Under the pieces are notes generated by a model. It worked only from the letters and a program-made list of their open reading frames with translations, had not been told where the DNA came from and searched no databases. The position numbers and the translations under genes were made by a program. From Mycobacterium intracellulare ATCC 13950 (GTDB lineage Bacteria; Actinomycetota; Actinomycetes; Mycobacteriales; Mycobacteriaceae): a DNA stretch of 64,000 nucleotides. Shown here in pieces: positions 12,150 through 62,774 of the stretch; the stretch's first letter is position 1; every line of letters starts with the position of its first letter. The DNA is taken from positions 1,054,001 through 1,118,000 of the forward strand of contig NC_016946.1 of assembly GCF_000277125.1 (NCBI RefSeq). The letters are read 5' to 3'.

Positions 12150-12226
12150 GCCCCCATAGCCCAATTGGCAGAGGCAGCGGACTTAAAATCCGTCAAGTGT
12201 CGGTTCGAGTCCGACTGGGGGCACCA
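12150..12226 (+). tRNA. leuX: tRNA-Leu, anticodon UAA
   Basis: Folds into a complete cloverleaf: acceptor GCCCCCA/TGGGGGC, D-arm GCC/GGC, anticodon stem GCGGA/TCCGT around the loop CTTAAAA (anticodon TAA), T-arm GTCGG/CCGAC with loop TTCGAGT, and encoded CCA. The variable region is only five bases (CAAGT), short for a leucine tRNA, which usually has a long arm. The 3' half is reused as the attachment site of the downstream element; integration leaves the tRNA intact. Its position after PE8 matches leuX in M. tuberculosis, as I recall. Confidence 0.93.
12178..12225 (+). repeat. attL core: 48-bp 3' half of tRNA-Leu
   Basis: The bases from CGGACTTAAAATCC to GGGGGCACC are repeated exactly at 24500-24547. 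One copy inside a tRNA gene and a direct repeat 12.3 kb away, with an integrase between them, is the standard signature of site-specific integration into a tRNA 3' end. Confidence 0.93.
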
Positions 12227-17107: not shown

Positions 17108-18259
17108 TCAGAATTCGACATCGTCCGGCTCTTTCACCCTTTGCAGGCCGGGCGGCAATTCCCACGTCCAGTGCGAGATCGCGCCGTCATCCCCGTAATG
17201 GGAAATCTTGATGACCGCGAGATCTTTTGACGCACTTTGCACTGTGCCCTTGCCCGCGCCGGTGGCTTGCTGGACTTTCTCAATCACTTCGTCAGAGCGC
17301 ATGGGACCGGCCGAGAGAAGTTGCTTGAGAGCCTGTTTCGCGGCGTCTCGCATCGGCGCTGTCTTGCGGGCATCGGCCACCTTGGCACCGTCAGCGCCGA
17401 CCAATTGGTCTGCTGTCAAATCAACGGTGCCGCGCCATGCGACAACCGGTACTTCTTCGTTGTCAGGCGAGCTTTCAAGTGAGTAGCCGATAGAGGCTGG
17501 GCCTTTGGACAGATTGCCGATTGCCCGTGCCAGCGCGTACTTTGCGCCTTCTTCGGACTCTCGGACTAACGGTGCAGCCGAGATCACCGAGCGCACCAGC
17601 GCCGAGTACGCCACACTGCCGCCCCCGCGATGCTTGGCGCTCATGCCAGCGGCCTTATTGAAGTGCCGAACCAACAAGATGGCACATCTTGTCTCGCGGG
17701 CCAGCTCCACCAGGTGCATAAGCACGCGACGAATCGATGTATCCACGCCGTGCTTGACGTTTTCGGGCATGCAGGCCGAGATGGGATCAATGACTACGAG
17801 TTTGGCATCGGTCTCTGTGATGCCCTGCCGCAGCCAAGCAATGTCGTCGGGAATGGTGAACGGCCTTGCGTCACCCCACTCGTCGACCGGCCTATTGAGC
17901 GTCGCGATCCTCTCCAGGTCCGCCCCGGCAGCGATCAATCGCGGCACGATGGTGTCGTCTTCGTCGTCTTCGATGCCCACAAGGATCACATCGGCAGGAT
18001 CCGCTATGGAGTCAACACGCTTGGCCCCAACGACCGTGGTAGGCCATGGCTTTCCCTGCGACACAATAGCGGCCATTGCAAGGGTGACCGTGGACTTGCC
18101 AACATCGGAGTCGCCCTCCAGGATCGACACCTTTCCGAGGGGTATCCAGCCATACCAAAGCCATTTGACGGCAGTAGGTTTAACGCCGCTCAGCCGGCGG
18201 ATCGCGCTTCCGCTCTCACCGCTGGTATCGACCCGCTCGTCGGCTACAATGTCTGACAT
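17108..18259 (-). CDS. RepA-like AAA ATPase (plasmid/phage replicative helicase family)
   Basis: A 383-aa P-loop ATPase of the AAA_25/RepA type: Walker A EGDSDVGKST (about residues 48-57), Walker B KLVVIDPISA, and the sensor-like CAILLVRHFNKAAG. A C-terminal winged-helix-like region (APMRDAAKQALKQLLSAGPM) could bind DNA. Proteins of this family act as hexameric helicases or loaders in plasmids and phage satellites, usually together with a primase-polymerase, which is present upstream. The ATG at 18259 has a strong GGAGGTGAA site. The iteron-like array begins just after its stop codon. Confidence 0.88.
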   Translation of the reverse strand: MSDIVADERVDTSGESGSAIRRLSGVKPTAVKWLWYGWIPLGKVSILEGDSDVGKSTVTLAMAAIVSQGKPWPTTVVGAKRVDSIADPADVILVGIEDDEDDTIVPRLIAAGADLERIATLNRPVDEWGDARPFTIPDDIAWLRQGITETDAKLVVIDPISACMPENVKHGVDTSIRRVLMHLVELARETRCAILLVRHFNKAAGMSAKHRGGGSVAYSALVRSVISAAPLVRESEEGAKYALARAIGNLSKGPASIGYSLESSPDNEEVPVVAWRGTVDLTADQLVGADGAKVADARKTAPMRDAAKQALKQLLSAGPMRSDEVIEKVQQATGAGKGTVQSASKDLAVIKISHYGDDGAISHWTWELPPGLQRVKEPDDVEF

Positions 18260-18269
18260 TTCACCTCCG

Positions 18270-18317
18270 AACGAGACCGCCCGTTGTCCGTCAAAGCAAT
18301 TGGGCGGTCTCGTTTTT
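18270..18317. other. Strong hairpin between excisionase-like gene and ATPase gene
   Basis: ACGAGACCGCCC (18271-18282) pairs perfectly with GGGCGGTCTCGT (18302-18313) and is followed by TTTTTT on the plus strand. As a terminator it would act on rightward transcripts. For the minus-strand operon the T-run is on the wrong side, and the stem lies just upstream of the ATPase ribosome-binding site, so it may be a processing or stabilising hairpin. Confidence 0.6.
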
Positions 18318-18324
18318 TACTCGA

Positions 18325-18543
18325 TCAGACGGCCCGCTCGATCCGGCTATCTAGCCACGCCTCGATGTCCTGACGCGCAAAGTACACACGCCCACCAATC
18401 TTGGTGCGCTTCAACGGCCTATCGCCGTAGTAGGCCGCCTTCTTGACCGTGCTGGAGCTCACGTCGACATGACCCAGCTCGCGAGCAACAAGCACAGTCT
18501 CTGCTGAGTCATAGAACTGCTTATCGGGGGTCAACACAGGCAT
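18325..18543 (-). CDS. xis: Excisionase-like HTH DNA-binding protein
   Basis: A 72-aa protein of the MerR-like/HTH_17 excisionase family. The segment SSSTVKKAAYYGDRPLKRTK followed by IGGRVYFARQDIEAWLDSRI is the typical winged-helix pattern in which the second half recognises DNA (KIGGRVYFAREDIEAWL type). Such proteins act as recombination directionality factors or transcriptional regulators. It is located between the primase-polymerase and the ATPase genes rather than next to int, so a control role in replication gene expression is equally possible. Confidence 0.82.
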   Translation of the reverse strand: MPVLTPDKQFYDSAETVLVARELGHVDVSSSTVKKAAYYGDRPLKRTKIGGRVYFARQDIEAWLDSRIERAV

Positions 18544-18739
18544 TTGGGCGCTGTCCCTTCATGTTTCGGATTTAACCGACGGTTACCCGTCGACTGCCCA
18601 AATTCTGCCGCACGACGCGCGCCATGTCTGCCCCTGCGGCCCGTAGGCTATTGCCCCTCAGCGCAATACGGCGGCTACACCGACACACGTCGTCAATTCA
18701 GCCGCCGCAATGGGCCAAAGTTTGGCAGATTCTTCCTAG

Positions 18740-19642
18740 CTACGCATACTCTCTAGAGTCGGTACCGGAACAGCGGTCGCTTTTGAGCTGCAACTGTTCG
18801 GCGCTGCTGTTCTCTGCCACATCTATGGCCCACTGCACCAGGCGTGAAAACTCGTTGCGGTCGCGGTCCCAGTACTCCCGTAGGGTCCGTATGACGGTTC
18901 GAGCGGGCACATAGCCAACGCGGGCCTCGCTCATGCCCACCTTTAGCGCTTCCCGCATAGCGTCGTGCGGACTGCGGCCCCGCTCCAGCAGTACCGCGTA
19001 CATCGTCAGCAGCGCATCAAGTTTGTGCGGCCTGGCGTTGCCGGTGTAGCGGGTGCAGAACTTGCCGACTGTGGTCCTATTGCCGCCAACCACCACCCCG
19101 GCCCCTGCCTTAACCACATGTGTTGCTAGGTAGCTGGCCAGCTCTTTCGGAATAGCCGGCGGCGATCCAGCACGCACAACGCGGCGGTTGCCATAGGGAG
19201 GCAGCACGATACCGCCGCCCACACAGCGCACCTCCCCGAAGGGCAGTGTGGGGTTACCGAGACGCAATCCTTTGGGAAGCGAGAACCAGTAGTGTCCGCG
19301 GTTGGGGCTCTCATCGGGACGGGTGGCCACGTACACAGCAGCGGCCAGGTGCTTTCGCAGGTGCCGGGGAGTGGAGGGCGGCCGATCAACGTCAATCACC
19401 AAACAGCCATATAGGCCGGGACTGGTGGCAAGGGCGCTGAAGGGTCCGAACTGTTCTCTCCACCGCAGCAGCTGCTTAGCGTCGGTGGTGATGTCTCGGT
19501 AGCCCACTAGGTTCCAGCACGATTTGCCCTTACCCTTGGCCGGGTCAAATGGCGCCACGGGAATACCGTTGGCCGCGTATTCCACGGCCGCGTCGAACAC
19601 GTCCAGACCGGTTACGTCCGGAAGCGATACGGACATATTCAC
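18740..19642 (-). CDS. Bifunctional primase-polymerase (Prim-Pol) domain protein
   Basis: A 300-aa protein with an N-terminal archaeo-eukaryotic-type primase-polymerase domain as found in plasmids and prophages: the opening VFDAAVEYAANGIPVAPFDP, the metal-binding CLVIDVDRP, and the later PNRGHYWFSLP and GEVRCVGGGIVLPPYGNRRV. The C-terminal region (about 190-290) is a helical domain. With the RepA-like ATPase downstream it forms a minimal replication module. The start is GTG 19642, overlapping the preceding stop (GTGA); an ATG two codons in is an alternative. Confidence 0.88.
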   Translation of the reverse strand: MNMSVSLPDVTGLDVFDAAVEYAANGIPVAPFDPAKGKGKSCWNLVGYRDITTDAKQLLRWREQFGPFSALATSPGLYGCLVIDVDRPPSTPRHLRKHLAAAVYVATRPDESPNRGHYWFSLPKGLRLGNPTLPFGEVRCVGGGIVLPPYGNRRVVRAGSPPAIPKELASYLATHVVKAGAGVVVGGNRTTVGKFCTRYTGNARPHKLDALLTMYAVLLERGRSPHDAMREALKVGMSEARVGYVPARTVIRTLREYWDRDRNEFSRLVQWAIDVAENSSAEQLQLKSDRCSGTDSREYA

Positions 19643-19878
19643 CCTAGGTCCGCCTTGGCCTCTTCTAGCAGCCGTAGGGCTCTGGCTTGCTTGTCCTGGG
19701 CCTTGGCACGGCGGGCACGCTTCACGGCTTCCGGCTTTAGATCGGCAATGGCTTGGTGGGCCGCAGCTTTAGCCACTACGGCCCGCACGTAATCACTAGG
19801 CACTCCTAGGCGGATGCTGATGTAGCCGGTGCAGTAGCCCTGATTGTGCAGCTGAAGAACCTTTTGCGCCTCGTACAC
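19639..19878 (-). CDS. Small HTH protein upstream of primase-polymerase
   Basis: A 79-aa protein beginning with GTG 19878. The first half (KVLQLHNQGYCTGYISIRLG followed by VPSDYVRAVVAKA) reads as a helix-turn-helix similar to those of sigma- or resolvase-type domains; the rest is a basic, charged helix (KRARRAKAQDKQARALRLLE). It overlaps the Prim-Pol start by four bases and its GTG overlaps the stop of the split gene upstream by one (TAGTG). It is possibly a replication or copy-number regulator; no named family recognised. Confidence 0.65.
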   Translation of the reverse strand: MYEAQKVLQLHNQGYCTGYISIRLGVPSDYVRAVVAKAAAHQAIADLKPEAVKRARRAKAQDKQARALRLLEEAKADLG

Positions 19879-19993: not shown

Positions 19994-20323
19994 GTGCCGA
20001 AACCGTTTCCTGCCGAGTTCCGAGCCGACGTCATCGCTGTGGCCCGCAAGGGCGAGGCGCCGCTGCGCCAGATCGCGAAGGACTTCGGCATCTCGGAAGC
20101 CTGCTTGCACCGCTGGCTCAAGATCGCCGACCGCCAAGACGGTGGCGACCGGGCCAGCACGCCATCTGCCGTTGCTGACGATGTAGCCGCGCAGCTGCGC
20201 GAGGCGCACAAGCGGATCAAACTCCTCGAGCAGGAGGCCGAGGTGATGCGCCGCGCGGTCGGCTACCTGTCCCGGGACGCTAACCCAAATGATGTACCCG
20301 CTGGTCCTCGACCTTGCCGCTGA
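19994..20323 (+). CDS. IS3-family transposase OrfA
   Basis: DNA-binding subunit of the IS3 transposase. From GTG 19994 the 109-aa product reads VPKPFPAEFRADVIAVARKG, then an HTH (LRQIAKDFGISEACLHRWLK) and a coiled-coil/leucine-zipper tail (LREAHKRIKLLEQEAEVMRR). An in-frame ATG at 19961 would lengthen it. It overlaps orfB by 35 bp in another frame, the arrangement in which a programmed -1 frameshift makes the OrfAB fusion. Appears intact. Confidence 0.88.
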   Translation: MPKPFPAEFRADVIAVARKGEAPLRQIAKDFGISEACLHRWLKIADRQDGGDRASTPSAVADDVAAQLREAHKRIKLLEQEAEVMRRAVGYLSRDANPNDVPAGPRPCR

Positions 20324-20981
20324 CGGGATCCCTGTTACGGTGACCTGCCGGGTCTTGGGATTCTCTACCCAGGCGTTCTACAAATGGCGCAAAGCACCGC
20401 TGTCGCAGCGAGATTGGGACGATGCGCACCTGATCAACGCCGCCCGCGACATCCACGCCGACGACCCCGCATTCGGCTACCGATTCATCGCAGACGAACT
20501 TCCCGGGCGCGGGATCACCGCCGGTGAGAACCGCGTCGCACGGCTGTGTTCCCAGGAGCGCATCTGGTCGATCTTCGCCAAGAAACGTGGACTAAACCGT
20601 CGATCCGGACCACCGGTCCACGACGACCTCGTCCAGCGTCAGTTCGGCGCCCCGGCCGCCAACCAGGTCTGGCTGGCCGATATCACCGAGCACCGCACCG
20701 ACGAAGGCAAGCTCTACCTCTGCGCCATCAAAGACGTCCACTCCAACCGGATCGTGGGCTACTCGATCGACTCGCGAATGAAGTCTTCGCTGGCGGTGGC
20801 CGCCCTGGATCACGCCGTGGCGCTTCGCGCACCTGTCGCGACGATCGTTCATTCCGACAGGGGCAGCCAATTTCGGTCACGAAAATTCGTCCACGCACTG
20901 TCGCACAACGGGTTACACGGATCGATGGGCCGGGTCGGTGCGTGCGGAGACAACGCCGCCATGGAGATGCTCCTATCGGTG

Positions 20982-22037
20982 TCAAGTGGTGATCGGGGCG
21001 GTTTCGAGAAGTCGGAAGAGATGGCGCGCGTAGTACCGCTTCAGACACCGCATGGCTTCACGTTTGGTCTTGCCATCGCTGACCCGACGGGCGATGTAGG
21101 CCTTGGTTGGCGGGTGAACCTTGGCCCGGGCCAGGATGACCGTGTGCAGTGCACGGTTCAGCTGGCGGTCACCACCACGTGAGAGACGGTGGCGAGTCTG
21201 GGTTTGACCCGAGGTCGCTTCGAGCGGTGCAACGCCGCCAAGGCGTGCGAAGGCGGCTTCGTCCCGGCAGCGGCCGGGGTGTGACCAGGACACGAGGATC
21301 TGAGCGGCCATCAGCACACCGATGCCCGGTTCATCGAGTAGCGCGGGTGCCATCGACCGCACCAGCGGGATCATCGCCAACTCAAGCTCGCGGCACTCGT
21401 CGGTCAGTTGCCTGACTCTGTTCGCAGTGCTGCGCAAGGACAACTTCGTAGCCGCGTATTCGGGGTCAGTAGCAGTGTCGGGGCGCAGTCGTTGGCAACG
21501 AGCCACCAACGCCATCAGGGGTCGACCTCGGAGTTCCTCACGGAGGTCAACCGGCGCGGTTACGACAAGAGCCTTGAGCACGTTAATCGCAGCGACCCGG
21601 GCAAGTTTCGCGCTATCGCGTGCGGTGATGAGTGTGCGCAGCCCTTCGCGCGTACCGCGCGACCGCGGGGTTGCCCAACTCTTACGTCCGAGAATCTCCC
21701 GTGCGGCCCTGACTGCGTCAAGGGAGTCGGACTTCGCGCCGTCCTTGGCCGCTCTGGTGCAGGGATGGTCAAATTCGATGACGAACTCGCCCTTCGCCGC
21801 CAAGGCTGCCGCGAGGCCGGCGCCGTAGCTCCCCGTGGACTCAATCGACCAGGCCCGCCGACCCTCGGTCGTGTAGGGCGCTGCCCACCGCAACGCCTGC
21901 CCATACCCGCGGGCCGTGGTGGGAAAAACTTTCGAGGCGAGCTCACCCTGGGTCTTCGAACATACGACGGCCGCGGTAATCCGATCACGATCAGGATCTA
22001 CGCCAATGACGTGATCGACGAGTTCTGCCAGTGCCAT
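20982..22037 (-). CDS. IS110-family DEDD transposase/recombinase
   Basis: A 351-aa RNA-guided recombinase of the IS110 family. The N-terminal RuvC-like domain has the DEDD residues Asp14 (GVDPDRD), Glu66 (SIESTGSYG), Asp104 and Asp107 (AKSDSLDA). The C-terminal Transposase_20 domain has PGIGVLMAAQILVSWSHPGR and the catalytic serine region ATSGQTQTRHRLSRGGDRQLN. The ATG at 22037 has an AAGGAG site. Complete, so potentially active. Confidence 0.93.
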   Translation of the reverse strand: MALAELVDHVIGVDPDRDRITAAVVCSKTQGELASKVFPTTARGYGQALRWAAPYTTEGRRAWSIESTGSYGAGLAAALAAKGEFVIEFDHPCTRAAKDGAKSDSLDAVRAAREILGRKSWATPRSRGTREGLRTLITARDSAKLARVAAINVLKALVVTAPVDLREELRGRPLMALVARCQRLRPDTATDPEYAATKLSLRSTANRVRQLTDECRELELAMIPLVRSMAPALLDEPGIGVLMAAQILVSWSHPGRCRDEAAFARLGGVAPLEATSGQTQTRHRLSRGGDRQLNRALHTVILARAKVHPPTKAYIARRVSDGKTKREAMRCLKRYYARHLFRLLETAPITT

Positions 22038-22254
22038 GCCTTGCTCCTTCTGATGCGGCGTTAAGGACTCCGCCGAGGAGTTGAGGCAGGACTGTGATGG
22101 GTCACCCGAAGGGACAAGCTCCTAATCAAGCCATCGAGGTCGGCGGTGCGGCTGACGGACATATCTCTCAATGAGGACACCGGTGGGGTCGGTCATTCTG
22201 TGGGTCACGTCAGCCAGCACCACCTTGCCGCGCAGCATGCTGGAAGTGTCACAG
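22038..22254 (-). ncRNA. Candidate IS110 bridge RNA
   Basis: The long leader of IS110 elements encodes a bridge RNA with a target-binding loop and a donor-binding loop. Reading the minus strand from the end inward, four short segments appear in the published IS621 order. AGAATGAC (22199-22192) matches the left target AGAACGAC with one difference that still allows a G-U pair. CATTGAG (22173-22167) is complementary to the right target CTCCATG except at one base. TAGGAGC (22124-22118) matches the right IS end TAGGAGC. TCACAGT (22097-22091) is complementary to the left end ACTGTGA. Boundaries of the RNA are not determined. Confidence 0.6.
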
Positions 22255-22699
22255 TCGTTCTTCGCCCTTCTGCAACGCAACGTGCTCGACCGGCGACGCT
22301 GGTCCACCCGAGCCGAACTACGCCTGGCGATCGTGACCTGGATCGAGCGGACCTACCACCGACGCCGCCGGCAACGCGCACTCGGCAGGCTCACCCCGAT
22401 AGAGTTCGAACTGCTCCACACACCAGTCGCAACCGCGGCCTGAAAATCACACCCCGCGAGTCAACTGAACTCGGGGCAGTCCCAACTGCTCGGCCTTCTC
22501 GGGCCGCAGCTGGCAAAGTGCGCTTAGAGTGCGCGCTACTTCCAAGAGGGTGGTCTCGGGGCCGATGCTGCGTTGATTGTCGATAGACATTGCTATCCCT
22601 TTCGGGGTCGAAACACGGCACCTCACCGGTCGGTGAAGGTGGACCGCGTTTCGCGCGTGCCTCCCGAAGGGCCGTGACTTAACGCCAGACTGTTTGCGT

Positions 22700-61946: not shown

Positions 61947-62774
61947 ATGGCCGAAAGACCCGTCGCTAACGCGCTGACCCTGGAACTCGAGCCGGTCGTC
62001 GAAGCGAACGTCGACCGCCACCTGTCCACCGAAGAGCTCTGGTTCGCCCACGATTACGTGCCGTTCGATCGGGGCGAGAACTTCGCATTCCTCGGTGGGC
62101 GCGACTGGGACCCGTCGTCGATGACATTGCCGAGACCGCTGACCGACGCCTGCGAGATCATGCTGCTGCTCAAGGACAACCTGGCCGCGCACCACCGCGA
62201 GCTGGTCGAGCACTTCATCCTCGAGGACTACTGGGGCCGCTGGCTGGGCCGGTGGACCGCCGAGGAGCACCTGCACGCCATCGCGTTGCGCGAGTACCTG
62301 GTGGTGACCCGCGAAGTCGACCCGACCGCCAACGAAGAGGCCCGCGTCCAGTACGTCATGAAGGGCTACCGCGCCGACACCTACTCGCAGGTGGAGACCC
62401 TGGTGCACATGGCGTTCGTCGAACGCACCCACGCCGTGTTCTGCGAGAACCTGGCCGCCAAGCTCGAGGAGCCCATCCTGGCCGGCCTGATCGACCGGAT
62501 CGCCCGCGACGAGCGGCGGCACGAACTGTTCTTCTCCAACCTCGTCGAGCACTGCCTGGGATACACCCGCGACGAGACGATCGCGGCGATCGCCGCCCGT
62601 GCGGCCGACCTGGATGTGCCCGGCGCCGACATCGACGCGTACCGCGACAAGGTGCAGAACGTCGAAAAGGCAGGCATTTTCGGTCCGGAGCAGCTGCGTC
62701 AGGCGATCTCCGACCGCATCGCCGCATGGGGGCTCGCGGACGAGCCCGCGCTGCGGCAATTCATCGTCGGCTGA
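61947..62774 (+). CDS. desA2: Acyl-ACP desaturase-family protein DesA2
   Basis: A 275-aa member of the soluble diiron stearoyl-ACP desaturase family. Helical bundle with iron-ligand motifs [14 protein letters not shown] and [19 protein letters not shown], plus Glu ligands around [14 protein letters not shown] 61947 ([20 protein letters not shown]) gives the DesA2 length; the longer frame begins before any site. M. tuberculosis DesA2 (Rv1094) is needed for mycolic acid synthesis; it lacks some canonical desaturase features, and the same could hold here. Confidence 0.92.

Follow-up and report, generated by a model that had tools for sequence, protein, structure and literature searches.

A predicted bridge RNA in the leader of an IS110-group element inserted in the catalytic Glu codon of an IS3 gene of Mycobacterium intracellulare

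The leader of an IS110-group insertion sequence in Mycobacterium intracellulare ATCC 13950 very probably encodes a bridge RNA that guides insertion into the catalytic Glu codon of IS3 orfB, as judged from sequence comparison. Comparison finds four matches between guide segments and DNA, covariation of guides with targets, a consensus loop architecture, conserved active-site residues in the recombinase, and an exact empty site; an insertion codon shared with relatives and a covariance model built here (R1) add to the support. Weighing against this reading are a mismatch in the right target guide (RTG), a left target guide (LTG) that reads CC where the target core has CT, the fold of the window's leader taken by itself, weak LTG scores in some distant elements, damaged relatives, and the lack of a matching Rfam family. 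The window is the whole stretch of DNA that was analysed, 64,000 nucleotides long; coordinates below are counted from its first base.

By analogy with IS621 and ISEc21, the RNA would be produced and bound by the protein, and the element would be excised as a circle joining the right end, CT, and the left end. The second RNA loop, carrying the left and right donor guides (LDG and RDG), would pair with the circle junction, and the first loop, carrying LTG and RTG, with the IS3 target AGAACGA-CT-CCATG. The DEDD/Ser recombinase would then exchange strands at CT, and the element would enter the catalytic Glu codon.

The element, its empty sites and its recombinase

The inserted element, the two pieces of the gene that it interrupts, and its terminal features are as follows.

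20289..20966, plus strand: first piece of IS3 orfB, whose last codon is the catalytic Glu, GAG
20967..22254, minus strand: IS110-group insertion sequence, 1288 bp including one CT core, bounded by comparison with two uninterrupted IS3 copies
20967..20975, minus strand: left donor at the right IS end, TAGGAGCAT preceding core CT
20980..20985, minus strand: TTGACA at the right end, -35-like by sequence only; TTGAC recurs near the right end in many relatives
20982..22037, minus strand: DEDD recombinase gene, 351 aa, identified by Pfam, NCBIfam, and phmmer
22038..22254, minus strand: leader of 217 bases, upstream of the recombinase gene at the left end
22248..22254, minus strand: left IS end (right donor), CTGTGAC including the core
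22255..22443, plus strand: second piece of IS3 orfB, whose first codon is Ser, TCG, and all of whose 63 residues agree with L106 and L107, the uninterrupted copies

The genome is a single contig of 5.40 Mb, and the IS110 element is present in it at copy number 1. The 13-base pattern AGAANGAYTCCAT has two matches in the genome, compared with one for a reversed-pattern control. Both are uninterrupted copies of the same IS3, L106 and L107, and serve as natural empty sites; L106 is identical to the interrupted gene at 226 of 226 residues before the break and 63 of 63 after it. The empty site in these uninterrupted copies reads GCCATGGAGTCGTTC, which fixes the exact boundaries of the element and the AG (CT) core. 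The core dinucleotide is CT on the minus strand, and the empty sites reveal no target duplication beyond the core. The two uninterrupted copies thereby show the left target, core, and right target to be those claimed in an earlier reading made from the sequence alone. L107, near position 1386998 of the genome contig, has a break in the orfB frame near residue 199, before the target site.

The first orfB piece (20289-20963) matches NCBIfam model transpos_IS3 at 207.9 bits, and 35 residues separate its second Asp from the Glu at the insertion. This gap equals the DD(35)E spacing of IS3 transposases, which places the insertion in the catalytic Glu codon.

The recombinase matches both Pfam models DEDD_Tnp_IS110 and Transposase_20, while its score of 136.2 bits to the NCBIfam model 'IS110 family RNA-guided transposase' falls just under the cut-off of 140. 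Searches with phmmer gave weak matches to ISCro4 (9t56, E 1.5e-8) and IS621 (8wt6, E 2.9e-7). The reading frame is open, and residues D, E, D, D, and S align with those of ISCro4, so that both the DEDD RuvC domain and the Tnp domain with conserved Ser of the IS110 group are present. In IS1111-type elements, including IS1383 and IS4321/IS5075, the guide RNA lies downstream of the gene; here the leader lies upstream, and the gene stops just 15 bases short of the right IS end. The role of the DEDD and Ser residues is described for IS621 in PMC11208158.

Elsewhere in the window, an AAA ATPase, a small HTH protein, and a primase-polymerase are encoded next to the IS3 at positions 17108-19878, and a tRNA lies at 12150-12223; these are possibly part of an integrated element. 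Positions 62265-62332 on the minus strand match the Rfam family ASdes, a small RNA named from tuberculosis bacteria.

Guide segments and predicted fold of the leader

Four guide segments and the predicted structural parts of the leader are listed in order along the minus strand, the whole RNA first.

22083..22224, minus strand: predicted bridge RNA, two stem-loops with internal loops, from covariance model R1 (the window row is in its training set)
22142..22224, minus strand: predicted target-binding stem-loop, outer stem 22204-22224 with 22142-22160, LTG and RTG in the internal loop
22192..22199, minus strand: LTG, AGAATGAC, one G-U pair with target AGAACGAC
22167..22173, minus strand: RTG, CATTGAG, matching right target CTCCATG at 6 of 7
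22085..22132, minus strand: predicted donor-binding stem-loop, LDG and RDG flanking a conserved apical hairpin
22118..22124, minus strand: LDG, TAGGAGC, identical to 20975-20969
22092..22097, minus strand: RDG, TCACAG, pairing with CTGTGA (core plus left end)

On re-reading the sequence, all four segments stand where the sequence-only reading had put them on the minus strand, and the identity of LDG with the right IS end is exact. The claimed six of seven for RTG also holds, the remaining base being a real mismatch; the corresponding RTG of the sister elements L005, L008, and L033 is TTTGGAG, with five contiguous pairs. Two claims needed trimming. The single C/T change described for LTG does permit a G-U pair with the target, but at the core LTG has CC for the target's CT, and the proposed complementarity of TCACAGT (22097-22091) to the left IS end holds for TCACAG, pairing with CTGTGA. 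The order LTG-RTG-LDG-RDG, as in IS621, is borne out, with the four guides matching target and donor.

Short matches might arise by chance in a leader of 217 bases, and 20,000 dinucleotide shuffles of the window leader show how readily. A match of the observed quality appears in 2.7% of shuffled leaders for LTG and 0.6% for LDG, and in 37% each for RTG and RDG (both at 6 of 7). All four occur jointly in none of the 20,000; the product of the single-guide rates is 2.1e-5, or about 9e-7 after division by the 24 possible orders. In the window copy alone, then, LTG and LDG carry the weight, while RTG and RDG are weak singly and gain from relatives. Given the joint result and the tests across copies described below, chance as the source of the matches is scarcely credible.

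A consensus fold of seven close leaders leaves LTG unpaired on the 5' side of an internal loop and places RTG on the 3' side of the same loop. On the RTG side it forms a three-base CUC/GAG pairing, and it also folds LDG into a short hairpin and joins the left end to RDG. Its outer stem has four pairs with changes on both sides among the seven leaders; the other helices are invariant and hence uninformative on covariation. The structure named in the list above is this consensus without the RTG-side, LDG-hairpin, and left-end/RDG pairs, plus a three-pair stem at the donor base. It has 97.3% of its cells paired, compared with at most 54.1% when slid by one to three columns. Of five measures compared with 500 shuffles, four stand out, with 2 to 10 shuffles reaching the observed value, whereas further pair types do not, with 409 shuffles reaching it. 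As modelled from the seven leaders and R1, the leader has the two stem-loops with guides in internal loops that characterize the IS110 group.

The sequence-only reading had proposed folding as a check that the guides fall in loops rather than stems. The consensus leaves LTG looped, but the minimum-energy fold of the window's leader alone (z -1.8 and -2.9) pairs part of LTG, AAUGA with UCAUU, so that the folding check speaks in part against the guide reading. Because the consensus disagrees with it for LTG, the single-sequence fold was not relied on.

A covariance-model search had been proposed as well. No bridge-RNA family in Rfam matched the leader at gathering or permissive thresholds, so model R1 was trained on seven leaders; it finds most leaders, matching 50 of 63 sources when E<=1 is allowed and 38 when E<=0.01 is required. 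Matches occur once per source, each upstream of an IS110 gene, and none occurs in the two empty-site loci. The window is the only training leader among the 63 sources, although training row L033 has a near-identical counterpart there in L011.

Relatives at the same codon and guide matches in the wider set

Relatives were sought by a genome scan (26 loci), in genomes of the genus (297), order (397), and class (394), and in plasmids, sampled as 17 of 1,114 matching records; element numbers drawn from the matches listed are lower bounds. The close clade, with IS110 proteins 73-97% identical to the window's, has at least ten further loci at the same orfB codon: L004, L005, L007, L008, L009, L011, and L033, where L006 is by its flank the same insertion as L009, and, seen on the right side only, L022, L023, and L031. 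The flanks of L011 and L033 are nearly the same, so the separate sites may number nine. In tblastn searches with the two IS3 pieces of the window, the break falls at residue 226 of the first piece or residue 1 of the second in every close-clade locus, except in L008, where the alignment of the first piece stops at residue 222.

The IS3 genes diverge more than the IS110 elements inside them, with the first piece 32-77% and the second 45-85% identical to the window's. Between the window and L009, taken as M. rhizamassiliense, the IS110 proteins are 97% identical and the IS3 pieces 60% and 46%. Separate insertions at the shared codon are therefore the simplest reading of these sequences, and a single ancient, co-inherited insertion was rejected on these identities. 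They bear equally on the wider proposal that the window copy is dead and the shared site a relic of one ancient insertion carried inside IS3. The element is indeed single-copy in its genome and rare, with matches at E<=1e-100 in just two more of the 297 genus genomes, and its recombinase gene is damaged in L008 (two stops) and cut in L006. With the window recombinase open, its active-site residues kept, and the insertions apparently separate, we consider such a relic very unlikely. Among 247 genomes from the genus of the Microbacterium copy, a search at E<=1e-80 gave two matches, both already in the set. A protein scan of viral contigs yielded 14 stretches that fit a pattern, none of them confirmed as a relative, and no such contig contained an exact 33-base pattern from the leader.

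Seven of the ten close-clade loci include a leader, and their guides agree with their targets except at third codon bases. LTG is AGAATGAC in most. In L033 and L011 it is AGAACGAT, and the target likewise reads AGAACGAT; in L007 LTG is AGAAACTC and the target AGAAGCTT, a difference that arises because that IS3 uses an AGC serine codon (codons were read by eye). Within the 8-base guide, mismatches and G-U pairs of this clade fall at third codon positions, that of serine and, in L007, that of Glu too; the tolerant guide base lies at a degenerate codon position. Diverged IS3 genes struck separately at one codon, together with empty sites in the same genome, make a natural experiment in RNA-guided insertion, in which guides track codon changes down to a switch of serine codon family. 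The suggestion that this copy would be a natural test has in this respect proved sound.

The wider comparison uses a curated set of 47 elements with a left end, whose proteins are 36-100% identical to the window's. Fragments were left out, as were near-duplicates (L006, L011, L053, L088, L092, L096) and elements whose left end was unclear (L031, L032, L037, L038, L051, L057, L059, L064, L067, L068, L072, L073, L075, L076, L078, L083, L084, L102, L105). Left ends were picked mainly by complementarity to RDG, but for several elements with the target guide in view. LTG matches its own target at 8.04 of 9, against 6.42±0.10 in shuffled pairings that treat elements as independent of kinship (47 elements); none of 20,000 shuffles reaches the observed mean. 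The other guides also exceed the maximum of 20,000 shuffles, with a smaller excess than that of LTG: RTG 5.53 against 4.87±0.09 (40 elements), LDG 7.57 against 7.10±0.06 (38 elements), and RDG 6.06 against 5.49±0.07 (47 elements). RDG complements the first six bases of the end, itself picked as described, fully in 41 of 47; three miss one core base and in three it was not found. The paired versions of RDG and end include TCACAG/CTGTGA, TCGCAG/CTGCGA, TGACAG/CTGTCA, TCACTG/CAGTGA, TTACTG/CAGTAA, TCAATG/CATTGA, and others.

Element by element, no control target equals the own-target LTG score in 20 of the 47, and at least 10% of control targets match equally well in 11, the window included (5 of 33). 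Six score at most 6.5 of 9, no better than controls (L050, L063, L070, L082, L085, L101). Copies inserted at sites that do not match their guides had been named in advance as evidence against guidance; all ten listed close-clade loci lie at the same codon, but these six members of the wider set do not show the expected match. A fully automatic pass, in which the donor guide set the left end and fixed anchors set LTG, yielded 52 rows and none for 18 loci; in 26 rows at least 8 of 10 positions paired, and the other rows included wrong picks. Because of wrong anchors in a number of rows, it was rejected as main evidence and kept as a check.

An alternative is that the protein picks the target and that common ancestry accounts for the leader matches. 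Close relatives do share both protein and target, and the shuffles ignore kinship. Within one clade, however, the guide shifts with the codon struck (L007, L033), and elements with proteins 36-58% identical to the window's, inserted elsewhere, have in most cases guides that fit their own sites. We therefore hold this alternative to be highly improbable and retain the reading of the leader as a guide.

Targets of related elements and comparison with known systems

The insertion lies inside a transposition gene in 19 of the 47 elements, where target genes were assigned from flank pieces searched apart, mostly one piece per element, with many scores below the models' whole-protein cut-offs and 7 of the 47 outside the flank search.

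IS3, Glu: seven elements, the window, L004, L005, L007, L008, L009, L033
IS3, Tyr/Phe-Asp before Asn: L035, L036, L070, L101, L103 (the tool matched the right piece only in L035 and L101, the left only in L036)
IS3, second Asp: L104
IS5-like: L015, and L065 by a weak match
IS1634: L069
IS630: L077
ISL3: L050
IstB, after GPPGTGKT: L030

Four more adjoin a transposition gene: L013 before istA, L089 before an IS6 gene, L082 after an IS110 gene (a weak match), and L094, with an IS5 piece on one side. In 13 of the 47 the flank pieces tried matched no family, and in four the flanks match other families (L081 and L100, and weakly L085 and L098). A further element, L073, is not among the 47 and is flanked on the right by an IS30 piece. 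The insertion sites in ISL3, IS630, IS30, and IstB are presumably catalytic motifs. The share of insertions in transposition genes was discarded as an estimate of preference, the elements having been sampled as relatives of the window protein among the matches listed and from 17 of the 1,114 plasmid records.

In a tree of 46 recombinases (L090, too short, was omitted), the IS3-Glu and IS3 Tyr/Phe-Asp groups each form a clade, with support of 100/100 and 100/99 respectively, and the midpoint root separates the two. The Tyr/Phe-Asp clade (L035, L036, L070, L101, L103) strikes orfB a few codons off, in the opposite orientation and with a different guide, at Gly-Asp-Ser/Ala-Tyr/Phe-Asp followed by Asn-Ala; L035 and L036 are on R. 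rhodochrous plasmid NZ_CP083975.1.

One tentative reading, which we find plausible but stop short of favouring, is that the bridge RNAs of actinobacterial IS110s have come time and again to target the best-conserved codons of competing transposition genes, in a niche that resembles the one of homing elements. The codons meant are those for the IS3 Glu, second Asp, and Tyr/Phe-Asp-Asn, those struck in ISL3, IS630, IS30, IS5-like, and IS1634 genes, and the IstB P-loop. Such a niche would offer targets in many hosts, probably at little cost to the host, with a competitor disabled at each landing. If true, the pattern would give a route to study natural retargeting of bridge RNAs and to ask whether RNA-guided elements live by disabling other elements.

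The element resembles IS621, as described in PMC11208160 and PMC11208158, in its leader RNA upstream of a DEDD gene, guide order, CT core, and active-site residues, and in having a variable first loop and a conserved second loop (PMC11208160). Recombinase similarity to IS621 is low (the phmmer E of 2.9e-7 above), and IS621 targets REP elements (PMC11208160), unlike the window element with its IS3 orfB Glu codon. ISEc21, according to PMC11187229, is likewise an IS110-group element with an upstream guide RNA and a target in IS3 DDE codons; its relative ISMch6 is described there as a case of natural redirection. ISEc21 strikes codons round the second Asp, whereas the window element, set apart by that description, strikes the Glu in actinobacterial IS3s. 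IS1383 and IS4321/IS5075, wider-family members that appear among the references of PMC11208160, also land in other mobile elements, but their targets are terminal inverted repeats rather than a catalytic codon. As far as these texts go, the mechanism and guide order are already known from IS621 (PMC11208160, PMC11208158), as is targeting of the IS3 second Asp from ISEc21 (PMC11187229); new are the catalytic Glu target, the codon-level covariation, and the related elements in other transposition genes. A search of literature with few subscription papers, PMC12500396 included, turned up neither the Glu target nor the wider pattern.

Several arrangements among the relatives were noted in passing. 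In L010/L053 (JAPPLW010000107.1), one IS110 appears by eye to lie within the leader of another. L062 and L088, the two that were read of five copies of one IS110 in genome G720, occupy similar intergenic sites (GGTGGTCGAGCAG...), repeat-like by eye. L079, L081, L085, L086, and L087 form a subgroup whose left end starts CATTGATG, CATTGATC, or CAGTAATG and which lies beside open frames; the adjoining frame has no clear family in L085-L087 and matches DUF222 in L081.
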